Positions 11,746-24,395 of a DNA stretch of 49,372 bases are shown here, in pieces; position 1 is the first letter of the stretch, and every line of letters starts with the position of its first letter. This DNA comes from Verrucomicrobiaceae bacterium E54. GTDB taxonomy: Bacteria; Verrucomicrobiota; Verrucomicrobiia; Verrucomicrobiales; Akkermansiaceae. The stretch spans positions 1 through 49,372 of the forward strand of contig JAKZES010000041.1 of NCBI GenBank assembly GCA_022548915.1, read 5' to 3'. The position numbers and the translations under genes were made by a program. The notes below the pieces were generated by a model that was not told the origin of the DNA, ran no database searches, and saw only the letters and a program-made list of their open reading frames with translations.

Positions 11746-12623
11746 ATTCCACGATGAAGATTTCCTTCCACACCGACGCCTTCAACACCTCCTTCAAGGA
11801 CTTCCAGCACTGTGTCGACTGGGCCGAGAAGAACGACGTGCACTGGATCGAGTGCGGACTGATCGACGGGGTCAGCTGGATCCACGGTCTCGGCTACCAG
11901 CCGCACGTGGCACTCTACGAGGACCCGCTGATGCTCAGGAACCGGATGGCGAAACAGGGGGTGGCCTTCTCGCAGGTCGATGCCGCCTTTCCGCTATCCG
12001 GCGTGGATGGCCCGACCTACGGCGTGCCCTACGTGCTGAAGACCCTGCCGTGGGCGAAACTCGCGGGCTGCGAGCGCATCGCGACCACCGACGGTCTGCA
12101 CCGGCCGGAAGGACTTTCCGACGAGGATGCGATGGAGATGATGAAGCGCCAGTATGCGCAGATCCTCGAGGTGGCCGAGGCCTACGAGATCACCATCAAC
12201 ATCGAGGTCCATGGCTACTTCACCACCAAGCCCGAGATGCTCGAGCGGATGCTCGACTTCGTCGACAGCGATTTCCTGCGGCTGAACTTCGACACCGGCA
12301 ACAGCTTTATCGCCGGCCAGGATCCGGTGGCGTTCTGCGAGCGCTTCAAGGACAAGATCAGTCACGTCCACGTGAAGGACGTGAGCGAATCGCTCGCCGC
12401 GATCGCCCGCGGTGGACAGACCGGCATCGCGCTAAGCCACTGCTCGGTGGGCGAGGGTGCCAACGCGGACAACATCAAGCGCTGCCTGGAGATCCTGCGG
12501 GACCATGGATTCGACGGCCACCTCAGCATCGAGTGCGAGGGACAGGGCGGTCCGCTGCTGGAGAAGTCGCTGCACTGGTTGCGCGGCACATTGAAGGAAC
12601 TCGAAATCGCGGAGGAACGCTGA
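11742..12623 (+). CDS. Sugar phosphate isomerase/epimerase (xylose isomerase-like TIM barrel)
   Basis: A 293-aa TIM-barrel enzyme of the AP-endonuclease-2/xylose isomerase-like superfamily, expected to isomerise or epimerise a sugar or keto-sugar with a divalent metal. Candidate metal ligands are the Glu in INIEVHGYFTT, the Asp and Asn in LNFDTGNSF, the His residues in HVHVKDV, and the Glu in LSIECEGQGG. There is no signal peptide, so it is cytoplasmic even though the three genes upstream encode exported proteins. The ATG overlaps the previous stop (ATGA); an ATG at 11754 would give MKISFHTDAFN and is a reasonable alternative. Its position with two Gfo/Idh/MocA genes suggests a sugar-conversion pathway. 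Confidence 0.9.
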   Translation: MNSTMKISFHTDAFNTSFKDFQHCVDWAEKNDVHWIECGLIDGVSWIHGLGYQPHVALYEDPLMLRNRMAKQGVAFSQVDAAFPLSGVDGPTYGVPYVLKTLPWAKLAGCERIATTDGLHRPEGLSDEDAMEMMKRQYAQILEVAEAYEITINIEVHGYFTTKPEMLERMLDFVDSDFLRLNFDTGNSFIAGQDPVAFCERFKDKISHVHVKDVSESLAAIARGGQTGIALSHCSVGEGANADNIKRCLEILRDHGFDGHLSIECEGQGGPLLEKSLHWLRGTLKELEIAEER

Positions 12624-12718
12624 GCAGCACCGATGCCGGTTGCCGGGCCGAACCTCCTCCCCCGCCCCGCAAATCCCGGCAATCGCTGCGCATCGCCTGC
12701 GTATTCATGAGTCATTGC

Positions 12719-12735
12719 TTGTGAATGAGTCACAA
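12719..12735. promoter_or_regulatory. CRP/FNR-type palindrome upstream of the redox operon
   Basis: TTGTGAATGAGTCACAA is an inverted repeat (TTGTGA / TCACAA around five bases) in an AT-rich island 18 bp before the ATG at 12754. The octamer ATGAGTCA occurs at 12707 and again at 12725, an 18-bp direct repeat overlapping the palindrome. Arm sequence resembles CRP-family half-sites (TGTGA/TCACA), but the spacer is one base shorter than in Escherichia coli CRP sites. Its role as an operator is inferred. Confidence 0.4.
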
Positions 12736-12753
12736 AAATCCGAGGATCCTTCC

Positions 12754-14172
12754 ATGACCGCTTTTCGGTCGTGGCCGACTTTGCTCGCGCCGCTCGCTTT
12801 CGCGCTGCTGGCGGGGGGTCTGCTTGTCTTCGCCTTTCGTGGTGGGCCGGATGAGGTTTCGCTCCGGATTCCGGCGGCAGGGCGGAAGGACGCGGCCGCG
12901 TTGAGCGGACCCTCTCCGCTCGAGTCCGGGACCACCACCGCGGGTCCGGGTATTGCCGCGGAACTGCCGGGCTCATGGCCGGGCTTTCGTGGTGCGGGCC
13001 TCGATGCCATCTCACCGGAGCGCATCCCGCTGCTCGACTCGTGGCCGGAGGAAGGACCGCCGCAGCAGTGGTCGGTGGCCGTCGGCGAAGGCTACGCCGG
13101 GCCGGCGATCCATGCGGGGCGCGTCTACCTGATGGACTACGACCGTGAAGCGCAGGCCGATGCCTTGCGCTGCCTGTCGCTCGCCGACGGGCGCGAAATC
13201 TGGCGCTTCTCCTACCCGGTCGCGGTCAAGCGCAACCACGGCATGTCCCGCACGGTGCCCGCGGTTGCGGGCGATGCGGTCGTGGCGCTCGGTCCGATGG
13301 GCCACGTGAGTTGCGTCGATGCCGCCACCGGCGAGTTCCGCTGGGGCGCCGACCTGGTGCGCGACCACGGCACCGAGATCCCACCCTGGTATGCCGGCCA
13401 GTGTCCGCTGGTCGATGGCGACCGGGTGATCCTCGCACCGGCCGGCAGGCCGCCCGACGGCCCCCTGCTCTGCGCCCTCGACCTCCCCACCGGCGAAACC
13501 CTGTGGAGCACCCCGAACACACTCTCCTGGAAAATGACCCACGCCTCGATCGCGGTCGCCGAGATCGAAGGGGTCCGGACCTACGTTTACTGCGGTCACC
13601 GCGGCGTGGCCGGCATTTCCGCCGAAGATGGCACCCTGCTGTGGAGCACCCCGGAATGGCGGATCAGCCTGGCCACCGTGCCGACCCCGGTGCCGCTGCC
13701 CGACGGGCGGCTGTTCCTGTCCGGAGGTTACAAGGCCGGCAGCCTGATGCTGCAGGTCCGCTCGGGAACCGAGGGTTGGAAAAGCGAACCGCTGTTCCGC
13801 CTCGACGACGATGCCTTCGGCGCGACCCAGCAGACCCCCATCTGGTATGAGGATCACCTGTTCGGTGTGCGGCCGGACGGGGAGCTGGTGTGTCTCGACC
13901 CCGACGGCAGCGTGCTCTGGAGCAGCGGTCCCTCGCACCGCTTCGGGCTCGGACCCTTCCTGATCGCCGACGGCAAGCTGCTGGTGATGGACGACCACGG
14001 TGAACTCACCATGGCGGCGGCATCGAACGAGCGCTTCGAAATGCTGGCCCGGGCCAAGGTGCTCGACGGCCACGATTCGTGGGCCCCGATGGCGATCGCC
14101 GGCGGCCTGCTCATCGTCCGCGACCTGACCGAAATGCGCTGCCTCGATCTTCGCCTCGATCCTTCCCCATGA
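12754..14172 (+). CDS. Membrane-anchored PQQ-like beta-propeller protein
   Basis: First gene of the redox operon, 472 aa. Residues about 8-28 form one transmembrane or uncleaved signal segment (LAPLAFALLAGGLLVFAF). The rest is a PQQ-like (BamB-type) beta-propeller with recurring blade phrases such as GREIWRFSYPV, TGEFRWGADLV, TGETLWSTPN, DGTLLWSTPE and GSVLWSSGPS. It opens with WPGFRGAGLDAISPE, a signature of planctomycete/verrucomicrobial propellers. I see no quinoprotein-dehydrogenase catalytic features, so I read it as a periplasmic binding or scaffold protein. I chose the ATG at 12754; a GTG at 12721 lies inside the palindrome. Its stop overlaps the next ATG (ATGA). Confidence 0.88.
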   Translation: MTAFRSWPTLLAPLAFALLAGGLLVFAFRGGPDEVSLRIPAAGRKDAAALSGPSPLESGTTTAGPGIAAELPGSWPGFRGAGLDAISPERIPLLDSWPEEGPPQQWSVAVGEGYAGPAIHAGRVYLMDYDREAQADALRCLSLADGREIWRFSYPVAVKRNHGMSRTVPAVAGDAVVALGPMGHVSCVDAATGEFRWGADLVRDHGTEIPPWYAGQCPLVDGDRVILAPAGRPPDGPLLCALDLPTGETLWSTPNTLSWKMTHASIAVAEIEGVRTYVYCGHRGVAGISAEDGTLLWSTPEWRISLATVPTPVPLPDGRLFLSGGYKAGSLMLQVRSGTEGWKSEPLFRLDDDAFGATQQTPIWYEDHLFGVRPDGELVCLDPDGSVLWSSGPSHRFGLGPFLIADGKLLVMDDHGELTMAAASNERFEMLARAKVLDGHDSWAPMAIAGGLLIVRDLTEMRCLDLRLDPSP

Positions 14173-14399
14173 AACCCACCCTCACCCGCCGCGAAATGGT
14201 CCGCCGCAGCCTTCGCTACGGAGGACTCGGGGCCGTCGGTGGCGTCGCCGCATGGCTGGGTGCCCGCTCGCTGAAAGGCGAATGCCGCACCCGGGGCCCC
14301 TGCGGCGGCTGTCCGCTTTTCGATGGCTGTGCGCTGCCAAAGGCAGAATCGGCCAAGCATGCGGGCATCCCCCGGACGTATCCTTCCGACGATGGCTGA
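14169..14399 (+). CDS. Small twin-arginine-leader peptide with a four-cysteine motif
   Basis: A 76-aa protein with no family I recognise. The N-terminus has a twin-arginine-type leader (LTRREMVRRSLRYGGLGAVGGVAAWLG), followed by the compact cluster CRTRGPCGGCPLFDGC (spacing C-x5-C-x2-C-x5-C). The cluster could hold an iron-sulfur centre or another metal on the outer face of the membrane. The gene overlaps the propeller gene before it by 4 bp and the propeller gene after it by 8 bp, which argues strongly that it is translated. The Tat leader would be consistent with cofactor loading before export. Confidence 0.75.
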   Translation: MKPTLTRREMVRRSLRYGGLGAVGGVAAWLGARSLKGECRTRGPCGGCPLFDGCALPKAESAKHAGIPRTYPSDDG

Positions 14400-15453
14400 G
14401 CAAAGGTCAGAACCCGATTCGGGTCGTCGCCGGCTGCTGCGGGCGACCCTGTGGGGCGGCGGTCTGGCCGGCCTCGGTGCGCTGGGCGGGATCGGCGTCA
14501 AGCGCCTCACCCAGGACCCCCCGGCCCCGAAGCGTCCACCGCTCGGACCCGAGTTCACCTACGACGTCTCCCGTTTTCAGACCTCCGACCCCGGCCTGAT
14601 CCAATGGCGCGAGCTCAGCCGGTTCCCGAGCGGCCTCGAGCGCCCCCGTAATCTCTGCACCACCCCCGGGGGCCACATCCTCGTCTGCGGCGACGACGGC
14701 ATCCGGCGCTTCGATGCCGACGGCCGGGAGCTCGGGTTCAGCCCGATCCAAGGCCGGGTCCACGCCGTCGCCGTGCTGCCGGACGAAAGCCTGCTCGCCG
14801 GCCTTCCCGACCAGGTGCAGGTGATCGCACCGGACGGCAAGGTCCGCGCCGTTTGGGAACTTGAAGACGTGCTGCCGACCTCGATCGCCGTCGCCGACTC
14901 GCGGATCTTCCTCGCCGATGCCCATGCCCGGGTGATCCGGGTGCTCGATCTCGAAGGGCGCCCGCTCCAAACGATCGGACAACGGGATCCCGACAAGGGC
15001 ATCGAGGGCTTCGTCGTGCCGAGTCCCTACTTCTGCGTCCGTGCTGCACCCGACGGACTGCTGCGCATCGCCAATCCCGGCAAGCACACCATCGAAGCCT
15101 GGACCACCGACGGCGACCTCGAGCTGGCCTGGGGCCGGGCCTCGTTCGCGATCGACGGCTTCTGCGGCTGCTGCAATCCCGTCAGCTTCGCGCTGCTTCC
15201 CGATGGCGGCTATGTGACCGGCGAGAAGGGCCTGCCCCGCGTCAAAACCTACGACGAGTGCGGTGCCTTCACCGGCATCGTCGCCGGCACCGAGTCCTTC
15301 CCGGAGTATGTGCAGGCCACGCAGGCCGGCACACCCGAGGCGGCAAGCGCGGGGATCTACGTGGTGGTCGATGCCGCGGGCCGCGTGCTCATCCTCGACG
15401 CGATCGGCGGCACGGTGCGAATCATGGTTCGAAAGGAGGACGGCGATGGCTGA
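14392..15453 (+). CDS. Tat/membrane-anchored NHL-like beta-propeller protein
   Basis: A 353-aa protein. It starts with a basic twin-arginine-type leader (GRRRLLRATLWGGGLAGLGALGGIG) and continues as an NHL/YncE-like propeller (RPRNLCTTPGGHILVCGDDG, RRFDADGREL, VLDLEGRPLQTIG). A CGCC motif in IDGFCGCCNPVSFALLPDGG is unusual for such propellers and could bind metal or a cluster. It is embedded in the redox operon with 8-bp overlaps on both sides. The likely place is the periplasmic face, docked to the Fe-S membrane protein encoded two genes later. The precise function is unknown. Confidence 0.85.
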   Translation: MAEQRSEPDSGRRRLLRATLWGGGLAGLGALGGIGVKRLTQDPPAPKRPPLGPEFTYDVSRFQTSDPGLIQWRELSRFPSGLERPRNLCTTPGGHILVCGDDGIRRFDADGRELGFSPIQGRVHAVAVLPDESLLAGLPDQVQVIAPDGKVRAVWELEDVLPTSIAVADSRIFLADAHARVIRVLDLEGRPLQTIGQRDPDKGIEGFVVPSPYFCVRAAPDGLLRIANPGKHTIEAWTTDGDLELAWGRASFAIDGFCGCCNPVSFALLPDGGYVTGEKGLPRVKTYDECGAFTGIVAGTESFPEYVQATQAGTPEAASAGIYVVVDAAGRVLILDAIGGTVRIMVRKEDGDG

Positions 15454-16009
15454 GGCCCCCGGAATGAACCGCCGCGCACTGCTCTCGGGCGGCCTTCGCG
15501 GGCTGGGCCTGCTGGGCATCGGCACCGCCACCGGAGCGCTGGCGACTCGCGACAAGCGCGACGACGAGGTGTGGCAGATCGATCCCGACGCCTGCATCCA
15601 GTGCGGTCTGTGCGCCACCGAATGCGTGCTTGAGATCTCCGCGGTGAAGACGGTGCACTCCCATGGCATGTGCGGCTACTGCGAGCTGTGCACCGGCTAC
15701 TTCGAACCCGACCCGGTGAACCTCGACGAGGGTGCCGAGAACCAGCTGTGCCCGACCGGGGCGATCGAGCGGACCTACATCGAACATCCCTACTACGAAT
15801 ACCGTATCAAGCCGGACCTCTGCGTCGGCTGCGGCAAATGCGTCAAGGGCTGCAACATGTTCGGCAACGGCTCGCTCTACCTCCAGGTCAACCACGACCG
15901 CTGTGTCGACTGCAACCGCTGCGCGATCGCCACCGCCTGCCCCGCAGAGGCCTTCCGCCTGGTCCCCCGCTCCGAGCCCTACCTGCTGCGAGGAAAGGAG
16001 GAGGCGTGA
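15446..16009 (+). CDS. Tat-exported polyferredoxin, NapG/MauM-like
   Basis: A 187-aa electron carrier with up to four 4Fe-4S clusters. Cysteine motifs in order are CIQCGLCATEC (about residue 50), CGYCELC with a later LCPTG, CVGCGKCVKGC, and CVDCNRCAIATACP. The N-terminus has an RR-containing leader (MNRRALLSGGLRGLGLLGIG), so export by Tat to the outer membrane face is expected, as for NapG. A strong ribosome-binding site, AAGGAGG, lies at 15433-15439. Its TGA overlaps the GTG start of the NapH-like gene, and NapG-NapH pairs are a known quinol-oxidising unit. It is the probable partner of the membrane Fe-S protein. Confidence 0.92.
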   Translation: MAEAPGMNRRALLSGGLRGLGLLGIGTATGALATRDKRDDEVWQIDPDACIQCGLCATECVLEISAVKTVHSHGMCGYCELCTGYFEPDPVNLDEGAENQLCPTGAIERTYIEHPYYEYRIKPDLCVGCGKCVKGCNMFGNGSLYLQVNHDRCVDCNRCAIATACPAEAFRLVPRSEPYLLRGKEEA

Positions 16010-17298
16010 GAATTCTGCTGCTCCTGGCGCTGCTGGCACTGCCCGCTCTGGGCATCGAGCGCTTCCCGCCGCCGGACTTCAGCGGCGGGCATCAGATCCC
16101 CGAAACCGTCGTTCCCGCCTCCCAAGCGAGAACGCAGGCGTGGATCGATGTCGCCGCGCTCAGCCTCGGCCTTCTCCTGGCCTCGTGGATCTCGCTCCGC
16201 CTCCGCTCGCGCAAGGGCCTCGTCATCCTTTCGCTGGTGGCCCTCGCCTACTTCGGCTTCTGGCGGCGCGGCTGCGTCTGCGCGATCGGCTCGGTGCAGA
16301 ATGTCGCGCTCGGGCTCGCCGATCCGGGCTACGCGGTGCCGCTGGCGGTGATCGCCTTCTTCAGCCTGCCGCTGCTCACCGCGCTGATCTGGGGCCGCAG
16401 CTTCTGCGCCGGCGTCTGCCCCCACGGGGCGATCCAGGACCTCGTGCTCGTCCGTCCGCTGAAGGTTCCCCACTGGCTCGACCAGCCGCTGCGCCTGCTG
16501 CCGTGGATCTACCTCACCCTGGCCGTCCTGCTGGCGGCCACCGGCGGGATGTTCCTGATCTGCAAGTACGACCCCTTCGTCGGCATCTTCAGGATGGGAG
16601 GCCCGCGGACGATGCTGCTGGTCGGCGGCGTTTTGCTGGTGCTTTCGATGTTCGTCGGCCGCCCCTACTGCCGCTGGCTCTGCCCCTACGGCGCCCTGCT
16701 CGGCCTGCTTTCGCGGGTCTCGCGCTTCCGCCCCTCGGTCACGCCCGACCACTGCTCGCAGTGCCGCTTGTGCGAGAACGCCTGCCCCTACGGCGCGATC
16801 CACCTGCCGACCCGGACGCCCACCGCCCCCGCCGACGACCGGGATGCCCGGTTGCGCACCCTATCCCTGCTGGTTCTCGTGCCGCTGGCCGCCGTGCTGT
16901 TCGGCTGGCTGGGAGGAAAGGTCGGCCTGGTTTCGGTGGCATGGCATCCCACCGGGGAACTGGCCGGGCAGGTGGCGATGGCCGATGCCGGCACGCTGCC
17001 CGAACCGGCACCCGACGAAATCACCGCCTGGCGGCAGTCCGGTGCGGATCGCACCTCGCTGAATACGGCGGTCGCCGTACTTGAGGAACGTTCGCTCACG
17101 CTGGGACGGATCCTCGGGGCGATCTTCGGCGTGGCCGCCGCGCTCCATCTCATCCGCGTGGCCTTTCCGCGGCCGACGGCGGACTACGAGACCGACGCAG
17201 CCGACTGCGTCTCCTGTGCCCGCTGCTTCAGCTCCTGCCCCTACGAGCGGCAGCGGCTCGGTCTTCCCACTGACATCCCCGGAGGCAGCCATGTCTGA
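16006..17298 (+). CDS. NapH/NosR-like polytopic iron-sulfur membrane protein
   Basis: A 430-aa multi-span membrane protein that probably moves electrons between the quinone pool or cytoplasmic donors and outer-face partners. It starts at a GTG (16006) after the strong site AAAGGAGGAGG, and the GTG overlaps the ferredoxin stop by 4 bp. Motifs in order are GCVCAIGSVQN, CAGVCPHGAIQDL, CRWLCPYGALLGL, the four-Cys site CSQCRLCENACPYGAI and, after a late transmembrane helix, CVSCARCFSSCPYER. The paired CxxxCP motifs mark the NapH/NosR/CcoG family. The extra C-terminal cluster and a 100-residue loop before the last helix differ from plain NapH and resemble NosR architecture without the FMN domain. 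Confidence 0.92.
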   Translation: MRILLLLALLALPALGIERFPPPDFSGGHQIPETVVPASQARTQAWIDVAALSLGLLLASWISLRLRSRKGLVILSLVALAYFGFWRRGCVCAIGSVQNVALGLADPGYAVPLAVIAFFSLPLLTALIWGRSFCAGVCPHGAIQDLVLVRPLKVPHWLDQPLRLLPWIYLTLAVLLAATGGMFLICKYDPFVGIFRMGGPRTMLLVGGVLLVLSMFVGRPYCRWLCPYGALLGLLSRVSRFRPSVTPDHCSQCRLCENACPYGAIHLPTRTPTAPADDRDARLRTLSLLVLVPLAAVLFGWLGGKVGLVSVAWHPTGELAGQVAMADAGTLPEPAPDEITAWRQSGADRTSLNTAVAVLEERSLTLGRILGAIFGVAAALHLIRVAFPRPTADYETDAADCVSCARCFSSCPYERQRLGLPTDIPGGSHV

Positions 17299-19048
17299 TC
17301 CCGAAGTCCGCTCCGCCCTGCGTGTCGCCGTCCACCGGATCGCGATCGTGGCCGGCGTGTTCTGCGCCGTCCTGGCAGGCCTGCTGTGGCACAACGGCAT
17401 CCAGCTCCACCGGGCCGACGAAAGCTTCCGCCTGGTCGATTCCGAAAAGCTCGTCGGCCTCAAGCAGCAACTCGCCGCCGACCCGGGCGACGCCGACCTC
17501 AAGGACCGGATCCGAACCCTCGATCAGGATCTCCGGCTGGAGTATTTCCGTCGCCAAAGCTTCGCCACCCGGGGCGGCTTCACCCTGCTCGGAGGCGGCC
17601 TGGCTTTCATCGTCGCCCTGCACCTGGCTCGCCACCTGCGCGGACCCCGGGTCCCGGTCTTTTCCGCCAAACCGGAGGACCGCATGCGTTCCGCCCAAGT
17701 CGCGGCGAAGGCCGTCGGCGGCACGCTGATCGTGCTCACCGGCCTGACCGCCGCCATGGTCGGCGGCCGCACCCGCCAATGGCAGGCCGCCCCCGCCGTC
17801 GGGGGTGACCTCCCCGAACCGGCGCCAACCGTGAACGAGGCGTGGTGGCCCGAGCCCGAAGAATGGGCGGCCCAGTGGCCCTGCTTCCGCGGCCCCGGCG
17901 GCATGGGCGTCGCGACCGTCGACAAGCTCCCCGCCGGGTGGAATGGAGAAACCGGTGAAGGCATCCTTTGGAAGACCGCCATCCCCCTCCCCGGGGAAAA
18001 CTCGCCAGTCGTCTGGGAAGACCGGATCTACCTGAGCGGCGCGACCGAGGACGAGCGCGCGATCTACGGCATCGATGCCACGACCGGCAGGATCCTGTGG
18101 AGCGCGCCCGTCAGCACTCCCCAAGGCAGCCGCTTCGATCCCCCCGCGGTGATGGAGGAAACCGGCTTCGCCGCACCGACCGCGGTCACCGACGGTCGTC
18201 GCGTGATCGCGATCTTTGCCAATGGCGAAATCGTCGGAGTCGGCACCGATGGCAGCCCGCTCTGGGCGCGGCACCTCGGCGAGGCCGACAACCTTTACGG
18301 CCATGCCAACTCGCTGGCGATGTGGCGCGACCTGGTGATCGTCGTTTACGACCGCGGCGGTGCCGAGGACGGCCTGTCGCGCATTCTCGCGCTCGACGCC
18401 GCCACCGGCGAGACCCGCTGGTCCACCGACCGGCCCGTGCCGGCCTCGTGGGTCTCCCCCATGGTCATCGAGCACGAGGGCCAGCCGCAGATCCTGACGG
18501 CGGCCAACCCCTGGATCATCGCCTACGACCCGGCCGACGGATCCGAGCTGTGGAAGGTCAAGGCGATGTCCGGCGATGTCGCCCCATCGCCGGCGTATCA
18601 CGACGGCGTCGCCTATTTCACCAACACCGGTGCCTGCCTGATCGCGGTGAAGGTCGACGGCCGCGGCGACGTCACCGACAGCCACGTGCTCTGGAAGCGC
18701 GACGAGGACGACTACCCGGACATCTGCAGCCTGCTGTGCGACGGCCCGCGGGTTTACACCGTCGTTTACGGCCGGCTCTTCGCCTACGACGCGCAGAGCG
18801 GCGATCAAGTCTGGGAACACGATCTCGAGGACGACTTCCAGGCCTCGCCGGTCCTGGTGAACGGTCGTCTCTGGCTGCTGACGATGGAAGGCGAGACGAT
18901 CATCGGCGACGTCGACGCCGAAGGTTTCCACGAAGTCGCACGCCACCCGCTCGGCGAGGAAATCGGAGCCACCCCCGCCTTCGGACCGGGCCGCATCTAC
19001 CTGCGGGGCCGGGAACACCTTTACGCGATCGGAGGCGATGAAGGCTGA
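17291..19048 (+). CDS. PQQ-like beta-propeller protein with three N-terminal membrane helices
   Basis: A 585-aa protein. Hydrophobic helices are at about residues 12-32, 95-115 and 137-155, followed by a large PQQ-like propeller with blade phrases TGRILWSAPVST, DGSPLWARHLGE, TGETRWSTDRPV, GSELWKVKAMSG and GDQVWEHDLEDD. The propeller starts with WPCFRGPGGMGVATVDKLP, like the propeller encoded at 12754, so the operon carries two distinct members of one fold. It overlaps the NapH-like gene by 8 bp and the NuoE-HydB fusion by 11 bp. Three helices place the propeller opposite the N-terminus, most likely outside. No cofactor-binding residues are obvious. Confidence 0.88.
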   Translation: MSDPEVRSALRVAVHRIAIVAGVFCAVLAGLLWHNGIQLHRADESFRLVDSEKLVGLKQQLAADPGDADLKDRIRTLDQDLRLEYFRRQSFATRGGFTLLGGGLAFIVALHLARHLRGPRVPVFSAKPEDRMRSAQVAAKAVGGTLIVLTGLTAAMVGGRTRQWQAAPAVGGDLPEPAPTVNEAWWPEPEEWAAQWPCFRGPGGMGVATVDKLPAGWNGETGEGILWKTAIPLPGENSPVVWEDRIYLSGATEDERAIYGIDATTGRILWSAPVSTPQGSRFDPPAVMEETGFAAPTAVTDGRRVIAIFANGEIVGVGTDGSPLWARHLGEADNLYGHANSLAMWRDLVIVVYDRGGAEDGLSRILALDAATGETRWSTDRPVPASWVSPMVIEHEGQPQILTAANPWIIAYDPADGSELWKVKAMSGDVAPSPAYHDGVAYFTNTGACLIAVKVDGRGDVTDSHVLWKRDEDDYPDICSLLCDGPRVYTVVYGRLFAYDAQSGDQVWEHDLEDDFQASPVLVNGRLWLLTMEGETIIGDVDAEGFHEVARHPLGEEIGATPAFGPGRIYLRGREHLYAIGGDEG

Positions 19049-21461
19049 CGTCGATCTCGGCTACGTGGATGAGGTCGTCGCCCGGCTCGGCCACGGCACC
19101 GACCAGGCATTGCCCATCCTGCAGCAGTTGCAGAGCCACTATCGCTATCTGCCGGAGCCCGCGCTGGAGCGCGTCTGCCAACTCACCGAGATCGACCCCG
19201 CCACCCTCGCGGGGGTTTCGACCTTCTACACCCAGTTCCGGCACCGGCCGATGGGGTGCCATCACATCCGCGTCTGCAACGGCACCGCCTGCCACATCCA
19301 GGGCGCGGGCATCGTTCACGAGGCGCTTTCCGACCACCTCGGCCTCGGCCCCGGCGAAGACACCGATGCCGACCAGCGCTTCACGCTGGAGAAGGTGTTC
19401 TGCGTCGGCTGCTGCACGCTCGCCCCGGTGGTGCAGATCGACGACCAGACCCACGGCCACCTCACCCGCGAACAGGCACCCGGGCTGATCGACCGCTTTC
19501 TCGCCGGACAAAAGCGCGCACGCAGACGCCGCAAGCCGCGTCCCCTGGCGCCCCCGTCCCGTCCGCTCGGGGAAGTGAGCCTGTGCCTCGACTCCTGCTG
19601 CGTCGCCCGCGGATGCGGCGCCACCCACGACGCGCTGCGGGAGACGATCCGGCGCCGGAACCTGCCGGTCGCCATCAAGCGCGTCGGCTGCGTGGTGATG
19701 TGCGATCGCACGCCGATGATCGGGCTGGCGCGTCCCGGCGAGCCCACGCTGGATTTTTCCGGGCTGACGCCCGAGCAGGTCGAGCCGACCTTGCTGCGAC
19801 ATTTCCGGCCGGAGGGCCTGTGGCCCCGGATCCGGAACGGGGTCTCGCTTGCCTGCGACCGCCTGATCGGCGGATCACCCGACCCCGTCCCACCCGAGCA
19901 GGATCCGCCGCCACCGGTGGCGGCCTTCTTCGGACCGCAGACCCACATCGCCACCGAACATTACGGCCGTCTCGACCCGCTCGACCTCGACGACTACCTC
20001 GCCCACGGGGGCTTCGACGGACTGCGGAAATGCCTCGCCGGGATGGCTCCGGGGGAGGTCATCGACGAGGTCGAGCGGAGCGGCCTGCGCGGGCGGGGCG
20101 GCGCGGGCTTTCCCACGGCCCGCAAGTGGCGGGTGGTCCGCGCCACCGCGGCCGAGCACCGCTACGTGATCTGCAACGGCGACGAGGGCGACCCCGGTGC
20201 CTTCATGGACCGGATGCTGATGGAGTCCTTCCCCTTCCGCGTGATCGAGGGCATGGCCATCGCCGCCTACGCCGTCGGTGCCGACAAGGGATTCCTCTAC
20301 GTCCGCGCCGAGTATCCCGCGGCGGTCGAGCGCCTGAACGAAGCCCTCCGCATCTGCCGCGAAAGGGGCTGCCTGGGCAACAACCTGTTCGACTCCGGGA
20401 TCTCCCTCGACCTCGAGGTGTTCCAGGGAGCCGGTGCCTTCGTCTGCGGCGAGGAAACGGCGATGCTCGAATCGATGGAAGGCCGCCGCGGCATCCCGCG
20501 CCTCAAGCCGCCCTTCCCCGCCGAGCAGGGACTGCATGGCAGGCCGACATTGATCAACAACGTCGAGACCTATGCCAACCTGCCATGGATCCTGCGCCAC
20601 GGCGCCGGGGCCTTCCACGTGATCGGCACCGAAAAGAGCAAGGGCACCAAGGTCTTCGCGCTGGCTGGAAAGGTCGCGCGCGGCGGGCTGATCGAGGTGC
20701 CGATGGGTCTCACCCTGCGCGAGATCGTCGAGGACATCGGCGGGGGAACGCCCGATGGCTCGCCCTTCAAGGCCGTCCTGATCGGCGGCCCGTCCGGCGG
20801 ATGCGTGCCGGCGGAACTCGCCGACACCCCCATCGACTACGAGTCGCTCTCGGAAGCCGGCGCGATCATGGGCTCCGGCGGACTGGTGGTGCTCGACCGG
20901 CATGACTGCATGGTCTCGATCGCCCGCTACTTCCTTGAATTCTGCCAGTGCGAGTCGTGCGGGAAGTGCACCTTCTGCCGGGTCGGCACGCGACGCATGC
21001 TCGACATCCTCGACCGCCTGGTCTCGGGCCGGGGAAAGCGCACGGACCTCGACGAACTACTGGAACTCTCGGAGATGGTGAAGCGCGCCTCGCTCTGTGG
21101 CCTTGGCAAGACCGCCCCCAACCCGGTGCTGACCGCGATCCGGCATTTCCGGGACGAATTCGAGGCCCATCTCGACGGATGCTGCCCCGCCGCCAGTTGC
21201 CGCGACCTGATTCACTACTCGGTCACCGCCGAATGCATCGGCTGCACGCTCTGCGCCCAACGCTGCCCGGCCGATGCGATCGCCGCCACCCCCTACCAGC
21301 GCCACCACATCGACGACGCCCTCTGCACCCGCTGCAACGCCTGCCTCGAGGCGTGCCCGGAGAATGCCATCACCGTCGCCAGCAAGGAGCGCGCGACGCT
21401 GTCGCGCACCGCCTCGAAACCCGCCACCGAATCCACTCCGGCCACCATGCCTCACGATTGA
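19038..21461 (+). CDS. NuoE-HydB-like fusion: NADH-oxidising flavoprotein with 2Fe-2S and 4Fe-4S domains
   Basis: An 807-aa fusion of subunits that are normally separate. Residues about 1-165 are NuoE/HydC-like with 2Fe-2S cysteines in VCNGTACHI and FCVGCCTLAP. Residues about 175-260 form a thioredoxin-like 2Fe-2S domain (CLDSCCVARGC, VGCVVMC). Residues about 330-690 are the NuoF/HydB FMN-NADH core (RGRGGAGFPTARKW, NGDEGDPGAFMDRMLME, GAGAFVCGEETAMLESMEGRRG) with SLBB and the 4Fe-4S site ESCGKCTFCRVGTRR. The C-terminus has two 4Fe-4S motifs (CIGCTLCAQRCP, CTRCNACLEACP). This is the domain order of the HydBC part of bifurcating hydrogenases, yet no hydrogenase subunit is present. GGAGG at 19031 precedes the ATG. 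Confidence 0.94.
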   Translation: MKADVDLGYVDEVVARLGHGTDQALPILQQLQSHYRYLPEPALERVCQLTEIDPATLAGVSTFYTQFRHRPMGCHHIRVCNGTACHIQGAGIVHEALSDHLGLGPGEDTDADQRFTLEKVFCVGCCTLAPVVQIDDQTHGHLTREQAPGLIDRFLAGQKRARRRRKPRPLAPPSRPLGEVSLCLDSCCVARGCGATHDALRETIRRRNLPVAIKRVGCVVMCDRTPMIGLARPGEPTLDFSGLTPEQVEPTLLRHFRPEGLWPRIRNGVSLACDRLIGGSPDPVPPEQDPPPPVAAFFGPQTHIATEHYGRLDPLDLDDYLAHGGFDGLRKCLAGMAPGEVIDEVERSGLRGRGGAGFPTARKWRVVRATAAEHRYVICNGDEGDPGAFMDRMLMESFPFRVIEGMAIAAYAVGADKGFLYVRAEYPAAVERLNEALRICRERGCLGNNLFDSGISLDLEVFQGAGAFVCGEETAMLESMEGRRGIPRLKPPFPAEQGLHGRPTLINNVETYANLPWILRHGAGAFHVIGTEKSKGTKVFALAGKVARGGLIEVPMGLTLREIVEDIGGGTPDGSPFKAVLIGGPSGGCVPAELADTPIDYESLSEAGAIMGSGGLVVLDRHDCMVSIARYFLEFCQCESCGKCTFCRVGTRRMLDILDRLVSGRGKRTDLDELLELSEMVKRASLCGLGKTAPNPVLTAIRHFRDEFEAHLDGCCPAASCRDLIHYSVTAECIGCTLCAQRCPADAIAATPYQRHHIDDALCTRCNACLEACPENAITVASKERATLSRTASKPATESTPATMPHD

Positions 21462-21555
21462 GGGAATATCCCAACGCGACCTCTTCCCAATCCCGCCAAC
21501 CCATCCACTCCACCAACTTCCAGAACTCACGATGCGCGACAGCGTCGCGCGCTCC
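21386..21555. repeat. Inverted pair of GGAGC-headed REP-like hairpins overlapping a gene end
   Basis: The arm at 21386-21410 has head GGAGC followed by hairpin GCGCGAC-GCT-GTCGCGC. A nearly exact inverted copy lies at 21531-21555. The left arm is inside the coding sequence of the NuoE-HydB fusion and encodes its tail residues ERATLSRT; the right arm ends just before the next ATG at 21563. The arrangement matches a BIME (two REPs in opposite orientation). A small palindrome, GGGAATATCCC, directly follows the stop codon at 21462. Confidence 0.7.
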
Positions 21556-21562
21556 TTCACCC

Positions 21563-23062
21563 ATGCCCACCATCACCATCGACGGCCGCGAAATCCCCGC
21601 CCGGGAGGATGGCACCATCCTCGAGGCGGCCCGGGCCGCCGGCATCGAGATCCCCACGCTCTGCCACATGGAGGGCTACGAGGCCGGGGCCTCCTGCATG
21701 GTTTGCGCGGTGAAATTGAAGCACAGCGGGCAGCTCATCCCATCCTGCGCTTCAAAGGTGGTCGACGGCATGGAAATCGAGTCCGCCTCCGACGACGTCC
21801 GGGGTGCCCGCCGGATGGCGCTCGAGCTTCTCTTCAGCGATCACATGGGCGACTGCCTCTCGCCCTGCCAGCGCATCTGTCCGGCGCAGCTCACCATCCC
21901 CGCCGTGCTCGAGCACCTCCGCCAGGACGAGCCGGACCAGGCCGCCGGCATCGTCCGCCGCGATCTGGCGCTCCCCGGCGTCCTCTGCCGCGTCTGCCAC
22001 CGGCCCTGCGAATCGGGTTGCCGTCGCGGCACCCACGACGAACCGGTCGCCATCGCCGAGCTCGTGCTTCACGCCATCAATGTCGGGGCGACCTCCGCTC
22101 CTTCCCCGGCAGCGGAGGTCCGTGACGAACGGATCGCCATCATCGGCTCCGGATTCACGGGTCTTTCCGCGGCCTGGTTTCTCGCCCGGCAGGGCTATCG
22201 ACCGGTGGTCTTCGAACGCGCCGACGGCCCCGCCGACAGCATCCGCCGCGAGTATCCCGATCTTCCCGGCACGGCCCTCGCCGCCGAACTCGACTTGCTG
22301 AAGTCGTCCGGAGTCGAACTGGTGACCGGCCGGGAGATCGACGATCCGGCGCCCCTGCTCGGCGAGTTCGATGCCGTTCTCATCGCCACCGGACCCGGGG
22401 ACGACAAGCCGGAGGTCGACAAGGACACGATGAGGGTCGTCGGCACCGCCGGGATTTTCGCCGCCGGCCGGGTGCTGCGACCGACCGGCAAGCCGGTGCA
22501 ATCGGTCGCCGATGCCAAGGCGGTCGCCAGTTGCATCGACCAGCACCTCCGCGGACGGCCCGTCCAACGCCCGCCGAAGCCTTTTTCCATCTTCATGGGG
22601 AAACTCCTCGACGGTGAGATGGACGACTTCCTCAAGGAATCCTCGGACGCCCACCGGGAAGAGACGGTCGATATCGACCACGCGCTGGCCGAATCGCGGC
22701 GCTGCGTGATGTGCCACTGCGCCAAGGCGGACACCTGCAAGCTGCGCCAGCTCGCGATCGACTACGAGGTCAACCCGAAGCGCTACAACACCGGCGAGCG
22801 GCTCCGGTATTCGCGCAACATCGAGCATCCGCTGGTCCGCTTCGAACCGGCCAAGTGCATCCGCTGCGGCAACTGCATCAAGGTCGCCGGCAGGCATGCC
22901 GAAGCGCTGGGGCTGACCTTCATCGGCCGGGGCTTCGACGTCCACCTCGGCGTGCCCTTCCACGGCACCCTCGACGAAGGCCTGCGCATCGCCGCCGAGG
23001 AAGCCATCGCCGCTTGCCCGACCGGTGCGCTGACCCACCGTGAGGTGGAGCGCCGATTATGA
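21563..23062 (+). CDS. 2Fe-2S / GltD-like / NuoG-like hybrid iron-sulfur flavoprotein
   Basis: A 499-aa composite redox protein. Residues about 1-85 are a NuoG/FdhA-type 2Fe-2S domain (GTILEAARAAGIEIPTLCHM, GASCMVCAVK, PSCASKV). Residues about 95-175 are a GltD-type double 4Fe-4S domain (CLSPCQRICPAQ, CRVCHRPCESGCRRG). Residues about 190-340 keep the GltD FAD fold (IAIIGSGFTGLSAAWFLARQ ... GIFAAGRV), but the NAD(P)-binding subdomain normally inserted there is absent. The C-terminus has CVMCHCAKADTCKLR and a NuoG/FdhA-like cluster (CIRCGNCIKVAGRHA ... ACPTGAL). It starts 101 bp after the NuoE-HydB fusion. Its last codons and stop lie in a repeat arm. Confidence 0.88.
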   Translation: MPTITIDGREIPAREDGTILEAARAAGIEIPTLCHMEGYEAGASCMVCAVKLKHSGQLIPSCASKVVDGMEIESASDDVRGARRMALELLFSDHMGDCLSPCQRICPAQLTIPAVLEHLRQDEPDQAAGIVRRDLALPGVLCRVCHRPCESGCRRGTHDEPVAIAELVLHAINVGATSAPSPAAEVRDERIAIIGSGFTGLSAAWFLARQGYRPVVFERADGPADSIRREYPDLPGTALAAELDLLKSSGVELVTGREIDDPAPLLGEFDAVLIATGPGDDKPEVDKDTMRVVGTAGIFAAGRVLRPTGKPVQSVADAKAVASCIDQHLRGRPVQRPPKPFSIFMGKLLDGEMDDFLKESSDAHREETVDIDHALAESRRCVMCHCAKADTCKLRQLAIDYEVNPKRYNTGERLRYSRNIEHPLVRFEPAKCIRCGNCIKVAGRHAEALGLTFIGRGFDVHLGVPFHGTLDEGLRIAAEEAIAACPTGALTHREVERRL

Positions 23063-23122
23063 AATCGGCCTCATCGTCCTGAACTCGAATCGTGCGGGTG
23101 CCGATTTCATAATCGGCGCTCC
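23047..23122. repeat. Perfect inverted pair of GGAGC-headed REP-like hairpins
   Basis: Two 23-bp arms (23047-23069 and 23100-23122) are exact reverse complements separated by 30 bp. Each arm is GGAGC followed by its own hairpin GCCGATT-ATGA-AATCGGC. The left arm supplies the last codons and TGA stop of the gene ending at 23062. It lies between convergent genes, so it may also serve as a bidirectional transcription terminator. Confidence 0.85.
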
Positions 23123-23129
23123 TTGCTCC

Positions 23130-24395
23130 TTATCGGCCCCACGCCCGCTGCACTTCCTCACCGATGATGCGGATGCCCTCGCGCACGGTCGGCCCGTCCA
23201 TGGTGAAGGTCATGCGCAGGCACTCGTCACGGTGACGCCATGCCTCATCCTCGAGACCGAAGAAGAAGTAGTGCCCCGGCACGATCAGCACGCCGCGCTC
23301 CTTGAGTCGCTGATAGAGCTCCCTGGAAGTGATCGGCAGGTCCGGGAACCACAGCCACAGGAACAGCGCCCCCTCGCTGCGGTGGACCCGGTAGGGGAAG
23401 TCATCGCCGAAGGACTCCGCCACCCACTTCTGCGCCAGCCGGCTTTTCTCGACGTAGAACGGCTGCACGGTCTCGTTCGACAGCTTCAGGATTTCCCCGC
23501 TCTCGACCAATGGCCGGGCGATCGCCTGGCCGATGTTGGGATTGGAGAGCCCGACAACCGAACTCATCCCCGCGACAGCCGCGGCGATCTTGGGATGGGC
23601 GACGACGATTCCCGTTCGCGTCCCCGGCAGGCCGATCTTCGACAGGCTCAGGGTGAGTATGATGTGCTCGTCCCACACCGGCGTCGCCTCGGTGAAGATG
23701 ACATTCGGGAACGGGGCACCATAGGCATTGTCGATGATCAACGGGATGCCGTGGACCTTGGCGATGTCCGACAACTGGGCGATCTCCCCGTCGGTCAGCA
23801 CGTTGCCGGTCGGGTTCGTCGGTCGCGACACGCAGATCGCGGCGATGTCGTCGCCAATCTCCAGCCTGTCGAAATTGACCCGGTACTTGAACTCGTGCTC
23901 GCCGATTCTCTCGATCTTCGGTGGGACGGCGCGGAACATTTCGCCGCAGGTGCCCTGGTTCGCATAGCCGATGTACTCCGGAACGAGCGGCAGCAGGATC
24001 TTCTTCCGCCGACCGTCGGGCATGTTCCCGGCGAGGAGGTTGAAGAGGAAAAAGAACGCCGTCTGGCCCCCGGCGGTGACCGCGAAGTTCGATTCATCGA
24101 CTTCCCACCCGAACTCGCGCCGGAACAACTTCACCAGGGCGGCGATGAACCCTGGCGAGCCACGGGGAGGGTCGTAGTTGGCCAGCATCCGCTCGAGGGC
24201 GCCGGGATCGGCGAGGATTTCCTCCATCCGCCGACGCCACAGGGCATTGACCTCCGGGATGTGCGCCGGCTGGCCGCCTCCGAGCATCTTTACATCCTCC
24301 CCGGAGTTCAGCGCACTGCCGAGATCCTCCATCAGTTCGCTGATGCCGCTCGGTGACGCAAGCTCGTGCCCGAGCCGTGAAAATTCAAAATCCAT
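23130..24395 (-). CDS. avtA: Valine-pyruvate aminotransferase, AvtA type
   Basis: A PLP-dependent fold-type I aminotransferase of 421 aa, resembling AvtA over its length. It transfers amino groups between alanine/pyruvate and valine. Visible features are LGGGQPAHIPEVNALWRRRM near the N-terminus, the SRPTNPTGNVLTDGEI motif, the Asp-Tyr pair in LIIDNAYGAPFPN, the PLP lysine in LSLSKIGLPGTRTGIV, and the substrate-carboxylate Arg in DECLRMTFTM. It is transcribed away from the peroxiredoxin gene across a 62-bp gap. No frame damage is seen. Confidence 0.95.
   Translation of the reverse strand: MDFEFSRLGHELASPSGISELMEDLGSALNSGEDVKMLGGGQPAHIPEVNALWRRRMEEILADPGALERMLANYDPPRGSPGFIAALVKLFRREFGWEVDESNFAVTAGGQTAFFFLFNLLAGNMPDGRRKKILLPLVPEYIGYANQGTCGEMFRAVPPKIERIGEHEFKYRVNFDRLEIGDDIAAICVSRPTNPTGNVLTDGEIAQLSDIAKVHGIPLIIDNAYGAPFPNVIFTEATPVWDEHIILTLSLSKIGLPGTRTGIVVAHPKIAAAVAGMSSVVGLSNPNIGQAIARPLVESGEILKLSNETVQPFYVEKSRLAQKWVAESFGDDFPYRVHRSEGALFLWLWFPDLPITSRELYQRLKERGVLIVPGHYFFFGLEDEAWRHRDECLRMTFTMDGPTVREGIRIIGEEVQRAWGR

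Follow-up and report, generated by a model that had tools for sequence, protein, structure and literature searches.

Which reaction does a bifurcating-type NADH flavoprotein serve when it is encoded beside a membrane iron-sulfur (Fe-S) protein and exported propellers? The question is raised by an eight-gene operon, g1–g8, in Verrucomicrobiaceae bacterium E54 (GenBank assembly GCA_022548915.1, contig JAKZES010000041.1, positions 1 to 49,372; this 49,372-nucleotide stretch is called the window). The operon may encode a membrane-spanning Fe-S relay driven by a Bfu-type core, an interpretation that we regard as an even call. The genes span 12754..23062, all on the + strand. Eight same-strand genes, six of them linked by overlapping start and stop codons, were reported in the initial annotation, and the coordinates confirm the eight genes: six of the seven junctions overlap, by 4, 8, 8, 4, 8, and 11 bp, and g7 and g8 are 101 bp apart when the g8 start is taken at ATG. 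Domain matches also agree with its part list of pyrroloquinoline quinone (PQQ) propellers (g1 and g6), a polyferredoxin (g4), a NapH/NosR-like protein (g5), a NuoE-HydB protein (g7), and g8. The features are as follows.

g1, 12754..14172, + strand: predicted membrane-anchored 8-bladed BamB/YxaL-type propeller (Pfam PQQ_2, alignments, model, fold matches)
g2, 14169..14399, + strand: predicted small twin-arginine-type anchored peptide with four Cys
g2 CX5CX2CX5C motif, residues 39–54, 14283..14330, + strand: from sequence
g3, 14392..15453, + strand: predicted exported NHL-type propeller (alignments, model, fold match)
g3 Cys-Cys-Asn-Pro, residues 260–263, 15169..15180, + strand: invariant in alignment
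g4, 15446..16009, + strand: predicted exported polyferredoxin; 16 invariant Cys, four 4Fe-4S sites
g5, 16006..17298, + strand: NapH/NosR-like membrane ferredoxin; 8 hydrophobic segments (estimate), three predicted cytoplasmic 4Fe-4S sites
g5 Cys90 and Cys92, 16273..16281, + strand: predicted outer face (alignment, homologue comparison)
g5 Cys186, 16561..16563, + strand: predicted outer face (alignment, homologue comparison, hydropathy/charge estimate)
g6, 17291..19048, + strand: membrane segments and PQQ-type propeller
g7, 19038..21461, + strand: fused BfuC-BfuB (NuoE-HydB), predicted electron-bifurcating-type core
g7 His711, 21168..21170, + strand: counterpart of the bifurcating BfuB B2-cluster His (ligand spacing per PMC9304861)
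g8, 21563..23062, + strand: BfuA/StnC-like subunit without the NADPH-binding part

Proposed electron route

From the domains, ligands, g8 deletion, additional g5 cysteines, gene order, and co-occurrence, we infer one complex in which electrons would flow outward, bypass quinone, and reach a terminal partner or substrate at the propellers. Inside the cell, NADH and reduced ferredoxin would both donate electrons to the FMN and clusters of g7, a confurcation that could in principle run backwards. The electrons would pass over the 2Fe-2S and 4Fe-4S clusters of g8 to a last 4Fe-4S cluster docking on g5, and the GltD-like part of g8 would no longer use NADPH. Transfer across the membrane would use the NapH-like cytoplasmic clusters of g5 and then an additional three-Cys outer-face site, where g2 may help. 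Outside, g4 would wire electrons to propellers g1, g3, and g6, with g1 and g3 as candidate sites of the terminal reaction; for many relatives, an exported terpenoid lipid is a possible target. Energetically, the proposed confurcation would fit the mid-potential range of the Bfu third reactions given in PMC9304861. If correct, this relay would assign a function to a Bfu-type enzyme for which no third substrate is recognised, would place bifurcation-type chemistry in the service of the periplasm, and would account for the recurrence of these genes in Verrucomicrobiota, Planctomycetota, and several uncultured phyla. It would also define two new parts: a NapH-like protein that carries three Cys at its outer face, and a twin-arginine-type (Tat-like) anchored CX5CX2CX5C peptide.

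Cytoplasmic core

g7 is a NuoE-HydB fusion, with BfuC and BfuB in one chain, and contains the Pfam domains 2Fe-2S_thioredx, Complex1_51K, SLBB, NADH_4Fe-4S, and 4Fe-4S. Its best matches among solved structures are 9bov_B, 9n5u_B, and 8oh5_B. The Cys of the NuoE cluster, of B1, and of both C-terminal 4Fe-4S sites (B3 and B4) are invariant in 11/11 sequences. Cluster B2 has ligands C438, C476, H525, C531, and C536 in PMC9304861, where the His is described as absent from non-bifurcating homologues. By spacing, the g7 equivalents are C624, position 662, H711, C716, and C721; C624, H711, C716, and C721 are invariant (11/11). With BfuB and BfuC domains and the B2 His plus Cys ligands, g7 appears to be a Bfu-family protein and is predicted to catalyze a coupled NAD(H)/ferredoxin reaction.

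g8 has Fer2_4, Fer4_20, and FAD-binding folds, and a Fer4_Nqo3 match slightly below the cut-off. In the alignment with 9bov_A, g8 residues 278 and 285 correspond to residues 287 and 455, and therefore about 167 residues, the NADPH-binding part, are missing. The FAD motif is kept; the flavin part is reduced further in loci L039, L046, and L050 (L and G numbers denote loci and genomes of relatives). At most one of the four usual Cys of the second NuoG-type cluster is left in any one of the 10 sequences compared. The 2Fe-2S and 4Fe-4S domains suggest a BfuA-like subunit. In a divergent type of operon (L160, L162, L163), the A part is attached to the C-terminus of g7; in the L163 sequence, Pfam matched Fer2_4 and NADH-G_4Fe-4S_3 there, and Fer4_Nqo3 weakly. 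No flavin domain was seen in this fused part in the three loci, and therefore the cluster chain is kept and the flavin is not. BfuBC cores without an adjacent A subunit occur in L062, L063, L064, and L068.

g7 and g8 share with HydABC-type Bfu enzymes the BfuBC core with FMN, B1, B3, B4, C1, and the B2 His, and an A subunit with 2Fe-2S and 4Fe-4S domains. In contrast, BfuC and BfuB are fused here, and the A subunit has no catalytic or NADP domain. The transhydrogenase StnABC (PMC10482914) and T. sibiricus Nfn-Bfu rank among the solved structures that g7 and g8 match best and have a NuoG-like plus GltD-like A/C subunit of the g8 type; however, g8 lacks both the NADPH-binding part and the FdhF-like C-terminus. 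By the features tested, the core is a Bfu-type enzyme. PMC9304861 lists 17 BfuB clades without function. A NapGH-like membrane/periplasmic relay with propellers is not among the partners of the Bfu types described in the sections examined, and the words "PQQ", "NapH", and "Verrucomicrobia" do not appear in its main text. A search of open-access literature, outside preprints and most subscription journals, found no description of the g1–g8 gene order, and the literature examined does not describe the partner module, the deletion in the A subunit, the three additional Cys of g5, or g2.

Propellers and direction of flow

No terminal enzyme is recognised for the operon. None of the window neighbours of the operon tested is a recognisable terminal oxidoreductase, and no hydrogenase, formate dehydrogenase, NapA, or NosZ partner was found among these neighbours or among the recurrent neighbour families listed, in which respect the locus differs from NapGH and NosR systems. 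The proposal of a unit that lacks a hydrogenase, formate dehydrogenase, or NapA-like gene stands: bifurcating-type flavoprotein, membrane Fe-S protein, polyferredoxin, and propellers recur together.

g1 and g6 both match Pfam PQQ_2. The g1 model (mean predicted local distance difference test score, pLDDT, 90.5) has BamB/YxaL-type fold matches with 8 blades, and alignments show strongly conserved or invariant Cys, His, Arg, and Trp residues. Against Pfam PF01011, g6 passes the cut-off of 26.7 bits with 48.3, and g1 is just below with 26.2. g6 matches two NCBIfam PQQ-enzyme families at 40.1 and 22 bits, with cut-offs of 480.05 and 832.65, and g1 matches neither; g1 is also below the NCBIfam cut-off of BamB. 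g1 resembles BamB/YxaL-type propellers in fold, but neither g1 nor g6 reaches the NCBIfam cut-offs for BamB or PQQ enzymes, and g1 has a strongly conserved Cys/His/Arg set. PQQ enzymes were rejected as the terminal partner on the unmet NCBIfam enzyme cut-offs, although g6 passes PF01011. PqqC had no match in the window's genome, nor in any of 14 controls. In L044 and L049, two genes together correspond to g6. g3 matches nothing in Pfam or NCBIfam. The best matches of its model (mean pLDDT 90.2) are NHL propellers, so the label "NHL-like" given in the initial annotation is correct. The g3 Cys-Cys-Asn-Pro is invariant in 57/57 sequences and is retained in the shortened g3 of L160, L162, and L163. 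By their invariant enzyme-like residues, g1 and g3 are candidates for the terminal reaction.

The same residues are compatible with an enzyme working in the opposite direction. In that case, the propellers would oxidise a periplasmic substrate, electrons would move inward via g4, g5, and g8, and g7 would bifurcate them to NAD+ and ferredoxin. Bfu enzymes are reversible (PMC9304861), and the PF01011 domain that g6 passes is an alcohol-dehydrogenase propeller domain. However, no dehydrogenase cofactor or family was recognised, and the scores of all three NCBIfam matches to PQQ enzymes fall well short of the cut-offs. NapGH-type modules run outward. Inward flow is unlikely in our judgement, and an outward relay from the Bfu-type core is preferred.

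Membrane and outer-face Fe-S proteins

g5 and g4 resemble NapGH in the NapH Cys pattern of g5 and in the exported four-site ferredoxin g4. The best NCBIfam match of g5 is NapH/MauN (61.9 bits, cut-off 213.05), and a second NapH family scores 58.1 with a cut-off of 234. Twelve Cys are common to g5, E. coli NapH, three NosR-type proteins, and YccM. Unlike these five proteins, all of which lack them, g5 has C90, C92, and C186, invariant in 51/51 relatives. A hydropathy and charge estimate places the 12 shared Cys inside and C90, C92, and C186 at the outer face. g5 further differs in an added segment, about 286–387, that contains two hydrophobic stretches and aligns to a gap in all five homologues, and in scores far below NapH cut-offs. 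Among the best 60 of 90 matches to solved structures, only ferredoxin stretches of g5 were matched. g4 has Pfam ferredoxin domains, and its 16 Cys in four ferredoxin motifs are invariant in 20 sequences.

g2 has no Pfam or NCBIfam match and carries CX5CX2CX5C behind a twin-arginine-like segment. A looser pattern, C-x(3-16)-C-x2-C-x(3-8)-C with a twin-arginine-like segment, was found upstream of g4 in 65/87 loci and in 0/87 controls on the other strand and 0/90 downstream; in 58 of the 65, exactly five residues separate the first and second Cys. A stricter pattern was found in 32/88 loci (control, 0/88). The motif is fused to the g4 N-terminus in several relatives (L039, L041, L043, L045, L052).

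The 12 shared Cys are also what a quinone link would lead one to expect. Here, g5 would trade electrons with the quinone pool like NapH, and the oxidation by g7–g8 and the periplasmic branch would meet there; Nuo-Bfu is a predicted quinone-linked Bfu (PMC9304861). The three additional invariant outer-face Cys of g5, together with g2, suggest a direct wire instead. We consider the quinone link doubtful, slightly more so than inward flow, and retain the direct Fe-S relay.

Conservation of gene order

Neighbourhood genes in relatives were placed by tblastn in two samples. For the genome set, 84,980 species genomes were scanned with a g4 alignment, yielding at least 526 relatives, of which 80 were kept. 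For the phylum set, 387 genomes were drawn from Verrucomicrobiota, and 20 neighbourhoods were fetched. The order g3-g4-g5-g6-g7-g8 was found in 32/80 kept relatives, 23 with g1 in front; many of the remaining relatives end at a contig edge inside the operon. A search in other Verrucomicrobiota and Planctomycetota, suggested in the initial annotation, thus bore out the gene order, and the 32 loci also include Firestonebacteria (L070), KSB1 (L086), and Poribacteria (L094). An Aminicenantes locus (L111), whose sequence begins at g4, has g4–g8. Most of the 20 phylum neighbourhoods have the same order.

Among loci with enough flank (4 kb upstream for g1, at least 7 kb downstream for g7), g3 lies upstream of g4 in 56/58 of the genome set and 16/16 of the phylum set, and g1 in 38/58 and 13/16. 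Downstream are g5 (68/68 and 18/19), g6 (55/58 and 14/19), g7 (37/45 and 10/18), and g8 (32/35 and 3/3). g3 is present in 54/387 phylum genomes and in 0/6 other same-genus genomes listed (both E≤1e-10). A close g7, defined by E≤1e-240 (a limit fixed after seeing the list; next values 6e-230 and 3e-224), occurs in 38/387 genomes. g3 is found in 35 of these 38, vs 19/349 genomes without close g7; Fisher values for this co-occurrence ignore phylogeny. G101, G209, and G259 have close g7 without g3. Close g7 is missing in 19/54 g3 genomes, of which several belong to the divergent type and carry its form of g7. In a tree with few outgroups, the main-type g7 copies group as a single clade (41/41, support 0.96); L152, labelled a paralogue in that tree, is an operon copy (L169). 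Pairwise distances correlate for all 21 gene pairs tested (r 0.65–0.89; 0/500 permutations each), and common host descent contributes. By order recurrence, the g7 clade, and distance correlation, the association of g1–g8 exceeds chance.

Co-conservation of the cytoplasmic and exported halves, on which the initial annotation depended, holds in part. The 35/38 count and the g7 that follows in most loci speak for it, and adjacent g7 is missing in 8/45 and 8/18 relatives with at least 7 kb downstream. Of the latter eight, G379 and G165 carry a close g7 (57–60% identity) elsewhere, G197 carries one of 47% identity elsewhere, and the remaining genomes have only more distant ones. Two machines in one operon, where g7–g8 would be a soluble NADH/ferredoxin enzyme serving some other partner and g1–g6 a separate exported module, would explain these loci and G101, where g7–g8 lie apart from g3–g6 and a g1-like gene lies beside a terpenoid synthase (L183), but are improbable in view of the 35/38 count, the conserved order and overlaps, and the correlated distances.

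In G101, L166 contains g7–g8 without any g3–g6. L173 and L174, second g3 matches of G012 and G227, are additional g3-g4-g5 sets beside a main operon or exported half; their g5 aligns over only about 260–270 positions. Of 7998 proteins scored in a profile search with g5, 2211 reached E≤1e-10, and the matches listed bear only generic names. No relatives of g4 were found in viral contigs.

Terpenoid genes in relatives

This analysis adds three findings to the initial annotation: in g8, the NADPH-part deletion; in g5, the additional outer-face Cys; and, in many relatives, terpenoid genes beside the operon or elsewhere in the same genome. The cassette encodes a ferredoxin-type protein, a radical SAM protein, a DUF116-polyprenyl synthase fusion, a prenyltransferase-type toroid protein, and a squalene-hopene-cyclase-like protein that contains a DADDT stretch, presumably the class-II cyclase motif. 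It runs straight into g1-g3-g4-g5-g6-g7 in L160–L164, which cover at least three families (f27, f38, f39); the L161 and L164 stretches are cut before the first cassette gene. In L044 and L049, the cassette takes the place of g7–g8 and comes after g5 and the membrane part of g6.

DUF116-polyprenyl synthase (E≤1e-60) is present in 63/387 genomes, 43/54 with g3 vs 20/333 without. This count covers the synthase and not the whole cassette because the synthase occurs without other cassette genes. No radical SAM, cyclase-like, or redox genes are near it in L179 (G234) or L180 (G066), and no cyclase-like gene was found near it in L186, L187, or L188; these five loci weaken it as a clean cassette marker. 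Of ten stretches fetched, L181 (adjoining L163), L184, and L185 carry the cassette with the cyclase-like gene. In G101, L183, on another contig than L166, has a strong g1 homologue (514 bits) directly behind the synthase.

A glycosyltransferase is near the operon in 5/19 phylum-set and 11/80 genome-set loci, and an ABC ATPase/FtsX-type permease recurs in 16 and 10 loci. A block of propeller, glycosyltransferase, and ABC ATPase/FtsX-type permease lies upstream of the operon or behind the cassette in L065, L085, L092, L100, and L185. A literature search for DUF116 gave only unrelated matches among those listed.

In a bolder and less likely reading, these genes may form one previously undescribed transmembrane pathway of about 13–16 genes that combines bifurcation chemistry, a quinone-independent Fe-S conduit, and periplasmic redox processing of an exported cyclic terpenoid lipid. 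Its genes would encode the Fe-S protein, radical SAM enzyme, DUF116-polyprenyl synthase, toroid protein, class-II cyclase-like protein, propellers, CX5CX2CX5C peptide, polyferredoxin, NapH-like conduit, BfuCB(A), glycosyltransferase, and FtsX-type exporter. The window's genome has no DUF116-polyprenyl synthase at E≤1e-60; its only match is a partial one, at 37%, to the prenyl part. Because that genome is without the cassette, the association is a lead on the system and not on the window copy; it points to an unexplored lipid pathway.

Host setting and points against the relay

The window's genome has two POR_N matches, three COX1 matches, and no RnfC_N match (the control matched in 9/14 genomes). 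The host is probably facultative, with low-potential ferredoxin and without Rnf. With two POR_N matches and no RnfC_N match, an outlet for reduced ferredoxin could be needed.

Several points weigh against a Bfu-driven Fe-S relay. The three COX1 matches mean that the host is not an obligate anaerobe. The proposed mechanism is drawn from sequence analysis; the g5 topology is a hydropathy estimate, and g5 may bind quinone. At position 662, a further B2 ligand of g7, 10/11 sequences have Cys and the window copy has Val. In the Akkermansiaceae-type loci L062, L063, L064, and L068, g7 is present and g8 was not found behind it; L062 and L068, where unrelated opposite-strand genes come after g7, count here. 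g1 is out of its usual place in 20/58 and 3/16 loci with 4 kb upstream, and the relatives without adjacent g7 belong here too. Cassette genes are near the operon in only 6/19 phylum-set and 3/80 genome-set loci, some by one gene only, and terpenoid genes are absent or were not seen for the window's genome.

Surroundings of the operon

In the window, ThuA/HEAT and TIM-barrel genes lie upstream of the operon, and an aminotransferase and an AhpC-type gene lie downstream. No promoter- or terminator-like sites were found in two short stretches scanned (12560–12800 and 22950–23250). Between g5 and g6 of one divergent relative (L162:10928-11548) is an additional 207-amino-acid open frame, flavodoxin-like by eye. 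Sulfatase genes flank the operon on one or other side in L046, L050, L053, and L107.

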